DNA of 64,000 nucleotides from Hyphomicrobiales bacterium (GTDB lineage Bacteria > Pseudomonadota > Alphaproteobacteria > Rhizobiales > Xanthobacteraceae), in NCBI GenBank assembly GCA_017305665.1, contig JAFKKH010000013.1:1-64000 (forward strand), in the 5' to 3' direction. Shown here in pieces: positions 6,221 to 25,564 of this stretch. Under the pieces are notes generated by a model. It was not told where the DNA came from and made no database searches. It worked only from the letters and a program-made list of their open reading frames with translations. Position 1 is the stretch's first letter; each line of letters opens with the position of its first letter. The position numbers and the translations under genes were made by a program.

Positions 6221-7615
6221 CTATCTTGGATTCGAGTACCGCTTCCTGCGGTGCGACTTCTTGCGCGGCGCGGCGGGCGCGGCTTCCCTGAGCGGACCGA
6301 TCCTGCGCAGCACGGCGTCGGCGGCGCGCTCGCCGCTCTCCCACGCGCCGTCGACCGTGCCCCACAGCGTCTCGTGCGTGGCCTCGCCCGCGAAGACCAT
6401 CGCGCCGAGCGGCTCCATCAGCACCCTGCGCGACGGCTGCCCGCCGGGCTCCGCCGCCGACATGGCGCCGAGCACATGGGGCGCGGCGTTCCAGCGCGTC
6501 GCCGCCGACCGCTTCACCGCCGCCGCGACATCGCTGCCGAACAGCCCCGCCAGCCATTCGCTGGCAAACGCGACCATCGCGCCTTCGCCCTGCGCCGAGA
6601 GCGCGCGGCCAAAGTCGCCAGCGACATCCACGGTGCAGAGCGACGACCCGTTGGCATTCGCGAGCAGCAGCGCGGTCTTTCCATCGCGGCTTTGCTCGAT
6701 CATGGCTTCGTTGGGGCCGAGCCCGAGCGGATTGTTGGGCAGCCACAGCGCAATGCGATCGTAGCTGCCGAGCGACAGTCTTGCCGCGGCATCGAGCTGC
6801 CGCTTCGGCAGATCGGGCGAAAAGCGGATGTTGCCGGAAGCAAGCACGTTGCTCGAGACCGTGACGATGATGGCGCGCGCATTGATACGTCCAGCGGGTG
6901 TCTCGACGCCGATGCCGCGGCCGGCCCAGGTCACGTGGCTTGCCGGCGTTGCAAGACTGACCGGCAGGGTCTGGCCAAGCGCCATCAGCAACGCACCGAG
7001 CCCCTGCTTGCAGCCGACCGCCGCGATGCGATCCGGCGAACGCGCCTGATCGATCGCCGACAGATCCTTCAGATCCTTTCCGGTCTCGCTTGCGCCAAGC
7101 ACGAAGTCGATGGTGCCGGCCCAGACGTCGAGATCGCCGGGCAAGGCCGCCGCGCACGACACGTCATTCCGCCCACGCGCGGCCTCGTCGATGGCGCGCT
7201 TGGCGCGCACCAGCGTGGCGAGAAACTGCTCGGTCTCGCCGGCGCGCGCGTTGCGCCGTCCGATCCGGATTTTCTGACCGGGAGGCACGTTGTAGAGGGT
7301 GAGTCCTGCGTTGCGCGCGAGTTTCACCATCGGATTGGTGTCGGGATTGTAGAGCCGGCGCGCGCCGCGATCGAACGGCACCTCGAACGTCTTGCTGTCG
7401 GTGAGGCAGCGGCCGCCGATCCGGTCCGACGCCTCCAGCACGATCACCTTGCGATTGGCCGCCGAAATCCGCCGCGCAGCCGCGATGCCCGCGGCGCCCG
7501 CACCGATCACGACCACGTCGGCCTCGCGCGGCAATGGCGCGGCGCGCGCGGTGCCGATCCCCACCGCTGCGAACGCTGCGGACGCCGACAGGAAATCGCG
7601 GCGCGTCATTCTCAT
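6221..7615 (-). CDS. Tat-exported flavin-containing amine oxidase (FAD-dependent)
   Basis: This is a 464-residue FAD-dependent oxidoreductase. It starts with a twin-arginine signal (TRRDFLSASAAFAAVG). The dinucleotide-binding motif VVVIGAGAAGIAAARR follows, with the RIGGRC flavin-contact motif downstream. Near the C-terminus, MVFAGEATHETLWGTVDGAWESG is the flavin amine oxidase signature. Family members oxidise amines or amino acids, releasing H2O2. The substrate here is unknown. It should act in the periplasm. ATG 7615 is chosen because GGAAA precedes it at a suitable distance. A second ATG is at 7609. The gene converges on the exported hydrolase gene. The C-terminus is basic (PRKKSHRRKRYS). 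Confidence 0.88.
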   Translation of the reverse strand: MRMTRRDFLSASAAFAAVGIGTARAAPLPREADVVVIGAGAAGIAAARRISAANRKVIVLEASDRIGGRCLTDSKTFEVPFDRGARRLYNPDTNPMVKLARNAGLTLYNVPPGQKIRIGRRNARAGETEQFLATLVRAKRAIDEAARGRNDVSCAAALPGDLDVWAGTIDFVLGASETGKDLKDLSAIDQARSPDRIAAVGCKQGLGALLMALGQTLPVSLATPASHVTWAGRGIGVETPAGRINARAIIVTVSSNVLASGNIRFSPDLPKRQLDAAARLSLGSYDRIALWLPNNPLGLGPNEAMIEQSRDGKTALLLANANGSSLCTVDVAGDFGRALSAQGEGAMVAFASEWLAGLFGSDVAAAVKRSAATRWNAAPHVLGAMSAAEPGGQPSRRVLMEPLGAMVFAGEATHETLWGTVDGAWESGERAADAVLRRIGPLREAAPAAPRKKSHRRKRYSNPR

Positions 7616-20566: not shown

Positions 20567-21319
20567 ATGATCGATGCCGCCGTCAAGGCGCTTTCGCAGA
20601 TCCTGTCGCCGCCGATGCGCGCCATCCTGTGGCGCGCCATCGGACTCGCGCTGGTGCTGATCGCCGTGCTGGCGGTGGGATTGCAGCGGCTGTTGAGCTG
20701 GCTCGCGGGCTCCGGCGAGATATGGGCCGAGACCGCGCTCGGGCCGAACTTCCACACGCCGCTGAATATTCTGGCCTGGATGATCTCCATCGCGGCCGGG
20801 CTCGGCATCGTGGTCGGCGCGGTGTTCCTGATGCCGACCATCACCTCGCTGGTCGCCAGCGTATTCGTCGACGACATCGGCGAGATCGTCGAGCGCGAAC
20901 ATTATCCGGCGGAGAAGCCCGGCACGGCATTGCCGTTCAGCGTCGCCATGATCGAGGGCGTCAAGATCGCGCTGCTGACGCTCGTGGTCTATATCGTCGC
21001 GCTGCCGTTCGTGCTGTTCGCCGGCGCCGGCTTCCTGATCTTCTTCATCGCCACCGCCTGGCTGCTCGGCCGCGAATATTTCGAGCTCGCCGCGATGCGC
21101 TTCCGCCCGCCGGAAGAAGCCAAGGCGATGCGGCGCGACAACGCCACCACGATCTTCATCGCCGGGCTGTTCATCGCGGCGTTCGTGTCGATCCCGATCG
21201 TCAACCTCGCAACGCCGCTGTTCGGCATGGCCTTCATGGTTCACATGCACAAACGTCTGTCAGGACCAAGGCCCGAACTGATCGAACCGGAACGGCACAG
21301 CCGGCTGCCGACGGCGTGA
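20567..21319 (+). CDS. EI24/CysZ-like integral membrane protein
   Basis: This 250-residue membrane protein has about four to six hydrophobic segments and an EI24/CysZ-like pattern: an N-terminal amphipathic helix, ILWRAIGLALVLIAVLAVGLQ, FFIATAWLLGREYFELAAMR near the middle, and FIPIVNLATPLFGMAFMVH-type sequence close to the end (SIPIVNLATPLFGMAFMVHM). CysZ proteins are sulfate permeases, but distant EI24-domain members like this one have no assigned substrate. ATG 20567 follows GAGAGGA (20551-20557). The gene converges on an nth 3' remnant 9 bases after its stop. Confidence 0.85.
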   Translation: MIDAAVKALSQILSPPMRAILWRAIGLALVLIAVLAVGLQRLLSWLAGSGEIWAETALGPNFHTPLNILAWMISIAAGLGIVVGAVFLMPTITSLVASVFVDDIGEIVEREHYPAEKPGTALPFSVAMIEGVKIALLTLVVYIVALPFVLFAGAGFLIFFIATAWLLGREYFELAAMRFRPPEEAKAMRRDNATTIFIAGLFIAAFVSIPIVNLATPLFGMAFMVHMHKRLSGPRPELIEPERHSRLPTA

Positions 21320-21328
21320 GCGCCGGAT

Positions 21329-21416
21329 TCAACCGATCGTCTTTTCCGGCCGGCGGCAGAGATCGTTGATCAGGCACACCTCGCAACACTGTGCGCGCGA
21401 GGCAGCTATAGCGGCG
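21329..21416 (-). pseudogene. Degenerate remnant of the 3' end of nth
   Basis: Read on the minus strand, this stretch encodes RYSCLAR in one frame. After a 2-base deficit it encodes CEVCLINDLCRRPEKTIG and a TGA (21329-21331) in another. The intact nth gene ends RYTCLARSPRCEVCLINDLCRWPEKTV. The nucleotide match runs over about 85 bases with scattered substitutions, including all four codons of the iron-sulfur cysteines. It is therefore a frameshifted, 5'-truncated copy of the last ~27 nth codons. It abuts the MFS gene stop on one side and the EI24-like gene on the other. Confidence 0.85.
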
Positions 21417-21421
21417 GAATT

Positions 21422-22965
21422 CTAGCCGGTTTTCCTGCTGTTCCGCGCCATGAACACCAGCAGCAAGCCAGCAACGGCCACCAACGCGAGCATCGCCCAG
21501 GCATCATTGACGCTGAGCGCCAACGCCGCTCTCTCCACCATGGGACGAACGAACGAAATCGTCGCCTGATCCGGTGGGCCCGGCGGCCGATTGAGAAACA
21601 GCCCTGGACTGAGCCCGATCGCCTTCGCTGCCGTGACATCGCCTGCCAGCAGGCGAACGCGAAAATCCTCTCCGTATGACATGCTGCGGCTATAGAGAAT
21701 GGTGTCGATCAAGGCGATGCCGATGGCGCCGCCAAGATTTCGCATCAGATTGAACAACCCGCTGGCATCAGGCACCTCTGCTTCCGACAACGCTCCCAAT
21801 GCCAGGCGCGTCGGGGGCAGCAGGCAAAACATGATCGCAACTCCTCGCACCACTTGCGGCCAGAACATCTCGTCGAAGTCGGCGACGCGCGGCTGGAACG
21901 CGCTCATCCCCAGTCCCAGTGCGAACAGGACGAAGCCAATGCCGGTCAGCATTCGCGCACCGATCCGGCTTTCGAGGATTGCCGCAAAAGGAGCCGCAAC
22001 GAGCTGCGCCACACCCGTCACGAGCATGATGGTTCCGATCTCGAACGCATCGTGGCTGCGGACAAACGCCAGAAAAACCGGCATCAGATACACCGAACCA
22101 TACAGGCCAACACCCAGGCAAAAGCTCAGCGCGCAGCTGACGGCAAACGAGCGCCGCTTCAAAATGGCAAGATCCACAACCGGGTGCGAGGCGCTCAGCG
22201 TTCGGCGGATGAAGATCCCGATTGAAACGGCGCTGAGGACGAACAGACCCACACAACGTAGCGACAGCCATCCATTGTGCGGGGCCTCCTTCAGTCCAAT
22301 TTCGAAACTTGCCAGGGCCGCCGCCATCAAGGCGATGGACACCACGTCAAGTTTCGTCAGTTCAGACAAACGCATGACTTGTCTTGGCAGCAGGAATGGC
22401 GTCGTCGCCGTTACGATCAGTCCGGGAATGACATTGACCAGAAACAACCACGGCCAGGAGTAGGTATCTGTGATCCAGCCCCCGGCGATCGGCCCGACCG
22501 TTGGCGCAAGGACTGCGACCGCGCCGCCAATGGTGGTGGCGACCGCGTGGCGATGCGGCGGAAACAGCAGAAAAACCGCCGAGAAAACCGCGGGGATCAG
22601 CATTCCTCCGGCAAATCCCTGCACAACACGGAAAACAAGCAGGACGGCAAACTTGCCGCTGAAGGCGCAGCCGGCGGACGAAGCTGTGAAGACCACGACG
22701 GCTGCCACGAACAGCCATCGCAAGCTGAAAACGCGTGTCAGCAGGCCGGTGAGCGGGATGGCAACCACTCGGCAATCAAATATGCCGTTTGGATCCAGCT
22801 CATTGCGTCCGGCGGTATCGCGAGCGCGCTCTGGATCGCAGGCAACGACGTTGCGACCACCTGAATGTCGAAGACGGCCATGAACATGCCGAGACACATC
22901 AGGAGAAAGCCCAGCCACACGACGATGGCCGACTGCGTGGTCGTGGATTCCTCGCGGCTGCTCAT
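21422..22965 (-). pseudogene. DHA2-type MFS drug/metabolite exporter, apparently frameshifted
   Basis: This encodes a 14-helix-type major facilitator of the EmrB/QacA (DHA2) group in two frames. The N-terminal part (start ATG 22965) reads MCLGMFMAVFDIQVVATSLP to AYLIAE. From about 22768 the sequence continues in the next frame as VVAIPLTGLLTRVFSLRWLF, and then through the remaining helices to the TAG at 21422. A single missing G (GAGTGG where GAGGTGG is expected) explains the break, so it is either a real one-base deletion or a sequence error. The start overlaps the ICMT-family gene stop by 4 bp. It probably exports the product of the neighbouring polyketide synthase. Confidence 0.8.
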
Positions 22966-23477
22966 GAGCCCGCGTGCATGGACGGCTCGCGTACCGCTGC
23001 GAGCGCCTGCGTCTCCGCGCGAATGCGAATGGTCATCGCAAGCGCATTCAGAATCGTGAAGATCAGCGCCAGCCTCGGTAGATTCAGCGCGAGCGGAAGA
23101 AGTGCGATTTCACCGGCGACGACCGCATAGTTCGGGTGCCGGCAATATCGATAAGGACCGGCCCTAATCAGCGGCTCCCCGGGCAACACGATGATCCGCG
23201 TCGTCCATCTCGCGCCGAGCGTCGCAAGAACCCAAAGACGAACACCCTGAAGCAGGGCGAAGCCGCAAAGGGCGACGACATTTACCGGCTGATCTCGTCC
23301 CCACATCCACAACGCGATCAGCCATGCCGCATGGATCGCGACCAGCAGCGGATAGTGTCCAGGCGCGATCTCGACGGCGCCCCGCGCCAACAGTTTTCGG
23401 ATGTTGAAATGCGACAGCACCAATTCGCCGAACCGCTGCAGCGTCACCAGCGCCAGAACGATGGCGGCGGCCGTCAT
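22962..23477 (-). CDS. ICMT-family membrane methyltransferase (isoprenylcysteine carboxyl methyltransferase-like)
   Basis: This small (171-residue) integral membrane methyltransferase has several hydrophobic helices. Its C-terminal GPYRYCRHPNYAVVAGEIALLPLAL is the SAM-binding RHPxY signature of the ICMT/PEMT family, and the later RIRAETQAL completes it. In Bacillus, a protein of this family (BpsB/YpbQ) O-methylates the alkylpyrones made by the adjacent type III polyketide synthase, so the same role is likely here. The ATG at 23477 overlaps the stop of the polyketide synthase gene by 4 bp. The stop overlaps the exporter start by 4 bp, a tightly coupled operon. Confidence 0.85.
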   Translation of the reverse strand: MTAAAIVLALVTLQRFGELVLSHFNIRKLLARGAVEIAPGHYPLLVAIHAAWLIALWMWGRDQPVNVVALCGFALLQGVRLWVLATLGARWTTRIIVLPGEPLIRAGPYRYCRHPNYAVVAGEIALLPLALNLPRLALIFTILNALAMTIRIRAETQALAAVREPSMHAGS

Positions 23478-24526
23478 GCGGCATGTTCCAGCAACGCACA
23501 ACTCGCCGTGAAGCCAGGCCCAAGCGACGTCAAAAGCGACCGCCGCGAAAGGCCCTGCGCGCGCACGCGCTCCAGCACGAACAGCACCGTCGGGCCCGAC
23601 ATGTTGCCATAGTCGGCAATCACGCTTCTCTCGCAATCGAGCGAACCTTGTTCGAGCGACAACGCCCCTTCCAGCGCCTGCACAACCTTCGCGCCGCCGG
23701 GATGGCAAATGAAACGGTCGATATCTTCAAGCGAACGGCCCATGCCGGAAAGGATCCCGCTGATGGCGGCGCCCATATTCGCGCTCACGAAATCGGGGAT
23801 GGTTCGCTTGAAGATCACGCCAAGACCCTCGGGATCGACACTCCAGCCCATCACATCGAGCGTATCCGGCCACAGATGCTCGCCGGTCGCTTCGATGCGC
23901 GTCGCGCCACCATCGCCAGCGCGCAAAACCGCAGCCGCCGCTCCATCGCCAAACAGGCTGAGCGCGACGATATTCGCCTTGGTCATCTCGTCGTGACGAA
24001 CCGCGAGCGTGCAAAGCTCGATCGTGACCAGCAGCACATTGGTGCCGGGACGTGCCTGCGCCAGCCGCGATGCAATCGACAATCCGGTCACGCCCCCGGC
24101 GCAGCCAAGGCCGAATACCGGCACCCGCGAGATATCTCGCCGGAACCCAAGCTTGCCCGCAACGCGCGCTTCCAGCGTCGGCGTCGCGATGCCGGTGGAG
24201 CACACCGTTACAACCGTATCGATATCGCCTGCGGAAAGATCGGCACGCGAGATGGCTTCACGCGCGGCGGCCATGAACAGCGCCTCGGCGCCTTCCAGAA
24301 ATGCCTCGGTGCGCTCCGGCCAACCGCGCCGTTCCAGGTACCATTCGATCGGCTTGACGCCGTAGCGTTTGACCAGGCCGGTATTGGCGAAGATGCTGGC
24401 GACGGTTTCGAATTCCGGATAGCGGGAGCCAAACACGCTGCGCGCCGCTTCGAGGATTTGTTTCTGATGAAACACATACGGTGGAACCGAGGTCGCCAAT
24501 GAAACCAAAGCGGCCGTATGCTGCAT
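23474..24526 (-). CDS. Type III polyketide synthase (chalcone/stilbene synthase family)
   Basis: This 350-residue homodimeric ketosynthase condenses acyl-CoA starters with malonyl-CoA. The catalytic triad is visible: Cys142 in VFGLGCAGG, His275 in FICHPGG and Asn308 in DYGNMSG. The C-terminal SLGPGFTASCALLEHA is typical. The sequence most resembles bacterial alkylpyrone/alkylresorcinol synthases rather than plant enzymes, judged from motifs only. ATG 24526 follows GAGGAA. It heads a three-gene operon with an ICMT-family methyltransferase and an exporter. The 180 bases upstream, before the nth stop, should hold the promoter. The product is likely an O-methylated lipid pyrone or resorcinol (inference). 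Confidence 0.93.
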   Translation of the reverse strand: MQHTAALVSLATSVPPYVFHQKQILEAARSVFGSRYPEFETVASIFANTGLVKRYGVKPIEWYLERRGWPERTEAFLEGAEALFMAAAREAISRADLSAGDIDTVVTVCSTGIATPTLEARVAGKLGFRRDISRVPVFGLGCAGGVTGLSIASRLAQARPGTNVLLVTIELCTLAVRHDEMTKANIVALSLFGDGAAAAVLRAGDGGATRIEATGEHLWPDTLDVMGWSVDPEGLGVIFKRTIPDFVSANMGAAISGILSGMGRSLEDIDRFICHPGGAKVVQALEGALSLEQGSLDCERSVIADYGNMSGPTVLFVLERVRAQGLSRRSLLTSLGPGFTASCALLEHAA

Positions 24527-24706
24527 ATTCCTCGTCCCGCGATCGATGGAGTCGGAATATGAACCGCGTCGCGGCGACGATATTTCAACGCGTGCGAAAG
24601 TTAGCGCAGCCGCGGCATCACTATAAGTTGAGCGGCGCCCCGCTGGAGCGGAGTATCCGCGACCTCCAGCAATTGCGGTTGCTGCAGCAGGGCAACGCTT
24701 TGACGC

Positions 24707-25564
24707 TCACACCGTCTTTTCCGGCCAGCGGCAGAGATCGTTGATCAGACACACCTCGCAGCGGGGGCTACGCGCCAGGCACGTGTAGCGGCCGTGCAGG
24801 ATCAGCCAGTGATGCGCGTGCAGCATGAACTCCGGCGGGATCACGCGCTCGAGTCCGAGCTCGACCTCCAGTGGCGTCTTGCCCGGCGCCAGTCCAGTGC
24901 GGTTGCCGACGCGGAAGACGTGCGTATCGACCGCCATGGTGTGCTCGCCGAACGCCATATTGAGCACGACGTTCGCCGTCTTGCGGCCGGCACCCGGCAA
25001 TGACTCGATCTCGGCGCGGGTGCGCGGCACTTCGCTGTTGAATTCCGCGATCAGTTTTTCCGACAGCGCGATAACGTTCTTCGCCTTGTTGCGATAGAGC
25101 CCGATGGTCTTGATGTAGTCGCGCACCGTCGCCTCACCGAGCGCGACCATCTTCTCCGGCGTGTCCGCAACGGCGAACAGCGCGCGCGTCGCCTTGTTGA
25201 CGCCGGCATCGGTCGCCTGCGCCGACAACACCACCGCGACCAGCAGCGTGTACGGGTTGAGATGCTCGAGTTCGCCCTTCGGCTCGGGGTTGGCGTTACG
25301 GAAACGGGTGAAGGCTTCGCGGACTTCCGCCGGCGTCCAGGGTTTTGTCGCGCGGCTCGCCGCTTTGTCAGAGGTCTTGGCGGAACGAGAGGCCGGCCCG
25401 GCGGATTTTTTCGATGCTGCTTTCGCTGCGGGCGCCTGCCCCAATTTCGCCGCAGCGGATTTTCGCTGCCTTGGGTTTGCCGCAAGACTTTTCGGAGGTG
25501 TTTTTGCGGTTCCGGCGCGGGATGTTTTGGCGGGTGTCGACCCGCGGCGGGTGATTTTCGACAT
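24707..25564 (-). CDS. nth: Endonuclease III (DNA glycosylase/AP lyase) with basic N-terminal tail
   Basis: Endonuclease III removes oxidised pyrimidines and nicks abasic sites. The product is about 285 residues. The core (from ~75) has the HhH motif LPGAGRKTANVV with catalytic Lys195, VDTHVFRV with Asp213, and the 4Fe-4S cluster cysteines at 262, 269, 272 and 278. The first ~75 residues are an extra Lys/Ala/Ser-rich tail, probably disordered and DNA-contacting. The start at 25564 is uncertain. In-frame ATGs at 25588 and beyond would run into the divergent DUF2244 gene. The last ~27 codons are duplicated as a remnant at 21329-21416. Confidence 0.92.
   Translation of the reverse strand: MSKITRRGSTPAKTSRAGTAKTPPKSLAANPRQRKSAAAKLGQAPAAKAASKKSAGPASRSAKTSDKAASRATKPWTPAEVREAFTRFRNANPEPKGELEHLNPYTLLVAVVLSAQATDAGVNKATRALFAVADTPEKMVALGEATVRDYIKTIGLYRNKAKNVIALSEKLIAEFNSEVPRTRAEIESLPGAGRKTANVVLNMAFGEHTMAVDTHVFRVGNRTGLAPGKTPLEVELGLERVIPPEFMLHAHHWLILHGRYTCLARSPRCEVCLINDLCRWPEKTV

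Follow-up and report, generated by a model that had tools for sequence, protein, structure and literature searches.

The window analysed here, 64,000 nt of a Hyphomicrobiales bacterium of the Xanthobacteraceae (GCA_017305665.1, contig JAFKKH010000013.1, positions 1 to 64,000), carries a three-gene cassette between nth, the gene for endonuclease III, and a convergent gene for an EI24/CysZ-like membrane protein (EI24). The cassette encodes a type III polyketide synthase (PKS), an ICMT-family methyltransferase and an exporter of the major facilitator superfamily (MFS). At its far side, against EI24, the last part of nth is present a second time, in degenerate form. We propose, with a probability of about 60%, that nth and EI24 were once convergent neighbours, that the cassette was inserted by recombination anchored in nth with an illegitimate joint at the far end, and that the old nth tail was stranded there.

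The nth remnant next to EI24

The intact nth gene, the proposed homologous anchor, is read on the minus strand at 24707-25564 (TIGR01083; Pfam HhH-GPD) and ends at 24707, as originally predicted from the window. In that prediction the remnant (21329-21415, minus strand) was described as a frameshifted copy, 2 bases short, of the last ∼ 27 nth codons. Alignment of 21338-21415 with the nth tail agreed with this description, giving 80 columns with one gap of 2 nt. The window's own nth tail scored 94 in this test, compared with at most 34 for shuffled tails, and the tails of ten neighbouring genes within 10 kb scored 23-32 under identical settings. A DNA search of the 5.03-Mb genome returned the nth tail as the sole clear match of the remnant besides itself (E 2.1e-17; next 0.215), a resemblance well beyond chance. 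The direct repeats 21338-21385 and 24713-24760 agree at 96% over 48 nt and lie 3,375 nt apart. These results confirm that the window holds a degenerate copy of the nth tail.

The remnant is closely flanked on both sides. Its in-frame stop codon (21329-21331) is separated from the EI24 stop codon (21317-21319) by a spacer of 9 nt (21320-21328), as read from the sequence; at the opposite edge, 6 nt separate it from the MFS stop codon (21422-21424), again as predicted.

Empty and filled nth-EI24 junctions

We examined the nth junction in 80 different genomes of the family, taken from the top of a similarity list and not at random. A convergent EI24 was found less than 220 nt from nth in 38 of them; in 37, nth and EI24 were separated by 0.23-8.8 kb, and five had no convergent EI24 within the stretch examined. 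Empty and filled junctions were interleaved on a tree of EI24, nth and DUF2244 (58 rows). The window was placed in this tree as the sister of eight other genomes of one group (support 100). We take this group (g1) to be Nitrobacter and a second one (g24) to be Bradyrhizobium. The comparison of relatives that had been suggested thus supports an insertion, through empty sites in other genera. The simpler ancestor postulated at the outset, EI24 beside a convergent nth, has its counterpart in the 38 genomes but was never seen in the window's own genus. The spacer between remnant and EI24 in the window (TGA-ATCCGGCGC-TCACGCCGTCGGCA) resembles that of the empty sites L102 (TAG-CGC-TCACACCGTCGGCA) and L116/L152 (...GGCGC-TCAGACCGTCGGCA); the other 25 of the 28 empty-site rows compared do not share this type.

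The cassette itself recurs at the junction. In Bradyrhizobium the PKS gene has a patchy distribution (72 of 265 genomes, E up to 1e-100), and 45 of the 60 cassette loci examined are at the nth-EI24 junction, with 15 elsewhere. The order nth-PKS-ICMT-MFS-EI24 was found in 12 of these 60 loci. A second MFS gene (MFS2) precedes PKS in 27 and follows MFS in 4, and 2 loci are cut by contig ends yet touch nth or EI24. Where the upstream side of the 27 MFS2-first loci was examined, nth lay ∼ 3 kb before PKS in every case (20 of 20). Among the other fillings are genes for an alpha/beta hydrolase together with a carboxypeptidase (L146), for a caspase-TPR protein (L153), for TctC (L157) and for a two-component system (L285). 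Insertion at this junction therefore seems to have happened repeatedly rather than once. Pfam recognised no integrase or transposase among 19 open reading frames from these other fillings and their flanks, seven of which had no Pfam match.

Three further features of these loci were noted. Another frequent filling is a HlyD-MFS pair, which can stand on either side of the PKS cassette; MFS2 matches 31 of the 60 Bradyrhizobium loci. A HlyD-type gene precedes MFS2 in L119 (4145-6893), the one locus scanned with Pfam, and the pair in L013 is the same by eye. The stop codons of MFS and EI24 apparently overlap (CTAG), a very tight convergence, in L203, L207, L209, L212-L216 and L221. Finally, the Bradyrhizobium genome G536 has two PKS copies with equal scores ∼ 300 kb apart (C1:2738280 and C1:3038329).

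Copies of the nth tail were sought in 157 loci, of which 133 differ in their nth ends. This count leaves out 27 loci that were short or own-genome duplicates, and an earlier control run on 61 loci also left out L013, L196, L026 and L038. A tail copy was present in seven of the 157 rows: the window, L013 and L201 (one genome), L199, L196 and L221 (one genome), and L321. L199 shares its joint with L013/L201, the sequences agreeing at 203 of 205 nt. A tail copy is carried by 5 of the 57 distinct filled junctions, representing about four independent events, and controls with the EI24 tail and with internal nth sequence both gave 0 in this set. One marginal EI24-tail match in the 61-locus run (L143, 33 versus 27) was absent from the deduplicated run. 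Together with the empty sites and the patchy cassette, these scars support the predicted insertion at a gene 3' end with displacement of the old tail. A cassette and remnant common to all relatives, which would have counted against it, were not found.

The scars differ in what they enclose and where they begin. L199 and L013/L201 have the order nth-PKS-ICMT-MFS-remnant-HlyD-MFS2-EI24. The clearest of the other scars is L221 (1480-2201), where an insert of ∼ 290 nt follows nth and is itself followed by a displaced 63-nt nth tail with 60 identical positions; the first ∼ 60 nt after nth resemble the close relative L140, and the spacer behind the displaced tail resembles that of the close relative L212. 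In L321 a single SnoaL-type gene (6369-6971, minus strand) follows nth and precedes a tail remnant of ∼ 40 nt. The remnants of the window, L199/L201, L221 and L321 start at different points, about 83, 53, 58 and 40 nt before the end of the nth coding match, which argues against a fixed crossover point, within the precision that remnant decay allows. A scan upstream of 64 cassette loci recovered L221 (88 versus 25); the scores of L210 (31 versus 25) and L232 (30 versus 25) were taken as noise. A search for the nth tail around cassettes that lie away from nth, those of Nitrobacter included, gave nothing clear; its one marginal score (L168, 35 versus 29 shuffled) was likewise taken as noise.

Mode and age of the proposed insertion

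In the proposed ancestor, nth and EI24 would have faced each other with hardly any DNA between them. The incoming DNA, presumably from another lineage, would have carried PKS, ICMT and MFS genes behind the 3' part of an nth gene. It would have entered by homologous recombination within nth at one end and by joining without homology inside the recipient's own nth tail at the other. This would leave an intact nth with the incoming 3' end, then the cassette, and finally the last ∼ 80 nt of the recipient's old tail, decaying against EI24. We favour such a process, akin to homology-facilitated illegitimate recombination (HFIR), because the remnants have variable starts, no integrase was recognised and the inserts differ in content. 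The original prediction had left the choice between homologous and illegitimate recombination open; on our reading both would have acted, homology in nth and an illegitimate far end. The nth gene is whole and borders the insert. In line with HFIR, the far junction is non-homologous and varies in position between events, as precisely as decayed remnants can tell.

Several observations weigh against this reading. In none of the eight other Nitrobacter genomes was nth seen adjoining EI24. The two genes are 66-163 kb apart on one contig in four of them, so the empty site was seen only in other genera. In three they are on different contigs, with no nth in the examined flanks of EI24. The EI24 contig of G004 breaks off within the gene, and nth is followed there by a gene for an HTH-cupin regulator. 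Most cassette loci at the junction lack a remnant, and the MFS stop codon often abuts or overlaps the EI24 stop codon. The L321 remnant is weak (41 versus 26-31 for shuffles). No mosaic tract or breakpoint was seen in nth. Neither a donor nor a close recipient sequence turned up for the event in the window. The remnant cannot be assigned with confidence to a lineage other than that of today's nth tail: it matches this tail at 65 of 74 comparable positions and other tails at 69 at best. The third-position G+C content of the cassette genes (0.70-0.73) is below that of the SDR gene, EI24, nth and the DUF2244 gene (0.79-0.89), which speaks for the insertion, but gpm in the same window has 0.75, and the contrast is thus mild. 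Lastly, the PKS tree does not tell an independent acquisition apart from an insertion that is old and shared.

The latter alternative, that the cassette entered between nth and EI24 once, in the common ancestor of Bradyrhizobium and the window's genus, after which remnants eroded nearly everywhere and the other genus members moved or lost the cassette, is the strongest rival, and we give it less than half the weight that we give to the nth-anchored insertion. In its favour, a single PKS clade of 23 rows (100/92) unites the window with Nitrobacter and the Bradyrhizobium junction loci. In six of the eight Nitrobacter genomes the PKS is present at 77-78% identity, at neither nth nor EI24, and at the EI24 end of seven genus members the best nth-tail score was 29, against shuffled maxima of 24-38. 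Against it stand the best PKS trees, in which Nitrobacter and the Bradyrhizobium junction loci group together to the exclusion of the window (97/92, 90/74, 92/77); the second of these trees pairs the window with L202 (93/72), whose cassette is not at nth. Approximately unbiased tests, on a set thinned from 70 to 49 rows, rejected neither the window with Nitrobacter (p 0.178) nor the window with the Bradyrhizobium junction loci (p 0.181). Since the order of the cassette relative to MFS2 varies, more than one event is needed in any case.

The state of the remnant also bears on a single old insertion. Over the 74 positions it has 69 matches in L134 and L130, 65 in the window's own nth and 55-63 in the eight other genus members, with a median of 63 over 154 rows. 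Between the window and G004, its nearest sampled relative, 63-70% of fourfold sites are kept, and an unconstrained fossil as old as an ancestral insertion should look worse than 65-69 of 74. The insertion is therefore probably younger than the window-G004 split, provided that the remnant is unconstrained and given the few sites. Aligning the two tails and comparing their phylogenies had been suggested. With 65 matches in the window's own nth and 69 in some Bradyrhizobium tails, tail phylogeny does not prove which tail is old. For naming a donor, 74 positions are too few. Lysine- versus serine-type tails were dropped as a marker because the deciding codons lie in a scrambled patch and serine also occurs in Bradyrhizobium tails.

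Genomic islands integrate at the 3' ends of tRNA or other conserved genes, whose end is restored while the displaced tail forms a direct repeat. The window has this geometry of restored gene, insert and displaced tail, and direct repeats of 48-80 nt bracket its cassette. The nth 3' end could accordingly be an attachment site, the tail its far half and the integrase lost or supplied in trans; alternatively, a circle with the cassette and an nth tail could have entered by one RecA crossover. We consider this improbable, at odds lower than those of an old shared insertion. The remnant starts differ between events (a comparison limited by decay), whereas integrase-borne islands should have a constant crossover point; the inserts are unrelated to each other; and the insert in L221 is shorter than 400 nt. 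A circle that entered by a single crossover may nevertheless be the explanation. Scans of the MFS, ICMT and PKS proteins with Pfam and NCBIfam recognised no integrase, in keeping with the original prediction, and the 19 open reading frames scanned from the other fillings and their flanks gave none either. Nor do the data point to an insertion sequence or composite transposon: Pfam found no transposase among the cassette proteins, and none of the five inverted repeat pairs detected brackets the cassette. No tRNA was found in the window.

Quite unlikely is a later local duplication of the tail next to MFS, unrelated to the arrival of the cassette. It would account for the many junction cassette loci without a tail copy. 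However, the orientation and stop-to-stop spacing of the remnant are those of an empty site, with a spacer resembling two such sites, and in L221 the tail was displaced together with a spacer like that of L212. An assembly or sequencing artefact can practically be dismissed: the genome is a draft of 47 contigs and the MFS frame is broken in the same cassette, but the tail copy is diverged and no perfect repeat, and similar scars occur in other assemblies.

Genes of the cassette and meaning of the junction

EI24 (20567-21319, plus strand; Pfam EI24, E 2.6e-30; NCBIfam PRK12768) adjoins nth in many genomes of the family and is its probable old convergent neighbour. The three cassette genes are on the minus strand. 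The gene for the EmrB-like (DHA2) exporter (21422-22965; TIGR00711) is matched only from model position 51; its frame is broken ∼ 66 codons in, near 22750-22800, the first part lying in another frame. In the Bradyrhizobium locus L013 the frame is continuous. Next come the ICMT gene (22962-23480; Pfam ICMT, E 5.8e-25) and the PKS gene (23474-24526; Pfam Chal_sti_synt_N/C, with type III PKS relatives in the PDB). In the longer loci of four other genus members PKS and ICMT are kept, with no match to the cassette exporter nearby. Taken with the frame shift, this suggests that the exporter may be dispensable.

The 180-nt spacer between nth and PKS (24527-24706, minus strand) resembles the PKS upstream region of many Bradyrhizobium cassettes in local alignment, with scores up to 91 (maximum of 100 shuffles, 53). 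Blocks TCAAYTTATAGTG and GTTGAAATAT in it are common to the window and some Bradyrhizobium cassettes, and could be a conserved promoter or operator.

Operons of a type III PKS and a methyltransferase, such as Bacillus BpsA-BpsB, are known, with products such as alkylresorcinols or alkylpyrones. The cassette is of this type, with a chalcone/stilbene-synthase-like PKS beside an ICMT-type methyltransferase, and differs by the added EmrB-like exporter with its broken frame. Mutation of BRADO0151, a type III PKS of photosynthetic Bradyrhizobium, had no symbiotic effect according to the passage cited (PMC3899966).

HFIR is described from E. coli conjugation experiments (PMC3240628, in the part cited), and work on it in Acinetobacter, Pseudomonas and Streptococcus is cited in PMC5361080. 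With one end formed by homology and the other without, it explains an insert beside an intact anchor gene and a displaced old end; it is known from experiments, whereas here its action, with nth as the anchor, is read from sequence. An HFIR-like mechanism was also proposed for the arrays of orphan immunity genes of the Vibrio cholerae type VI secretion system (PMC5361080). There, as far as the cited text goes, a new module likewise enters beside a conserved anchor and shifts the old 3' part downstream, but the left-over is a whole gene and not a ∼ 80-nt fossil of a housekeeping gene. For other species, the portion cited of PMC2884548 reports that about 10% of the small variable segments have direct repeats. 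Among the matches listed in the open-access literature on nth as an insertion site and on illegitimate recombination in Bradyrhizobium, nothing concerned the nth-EI24 junction.

The event proposed for the window is thus of a known and ordinary kind, but unusually well preserved in the sequence, at a junction where insertion seems to recur. A wider suggestion, which we hold at slightly less than even odds, is that the nth 3' end is a recurring, integrase-free capture site across the family, at which each illegitimate entry would leave a short tail fossil that can be counted and dated. Given the strong conservation of nth and the convergent gene opposite its tail, DNA anchored in nth would be able to bring in genes at this point and leave both neighbours unharmed. 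Our boldest extension is that the bracketing tail repeats may by now allow the cassette to excise, or to enter again at nth ends elsewhere, through ordinary RecA recombination. When genes are gained between core genes, the way in which they arrived usually leaves no mark. In the window the far joint is marked by the old tail of the anchor gene, so that mechanism, polarity and relative age may be read from sequence. With inserts in 37 of 80 genomes and recurring tail fossils, the junction lets one-sided homologous capture be tested in nature rather than in the laboratory.

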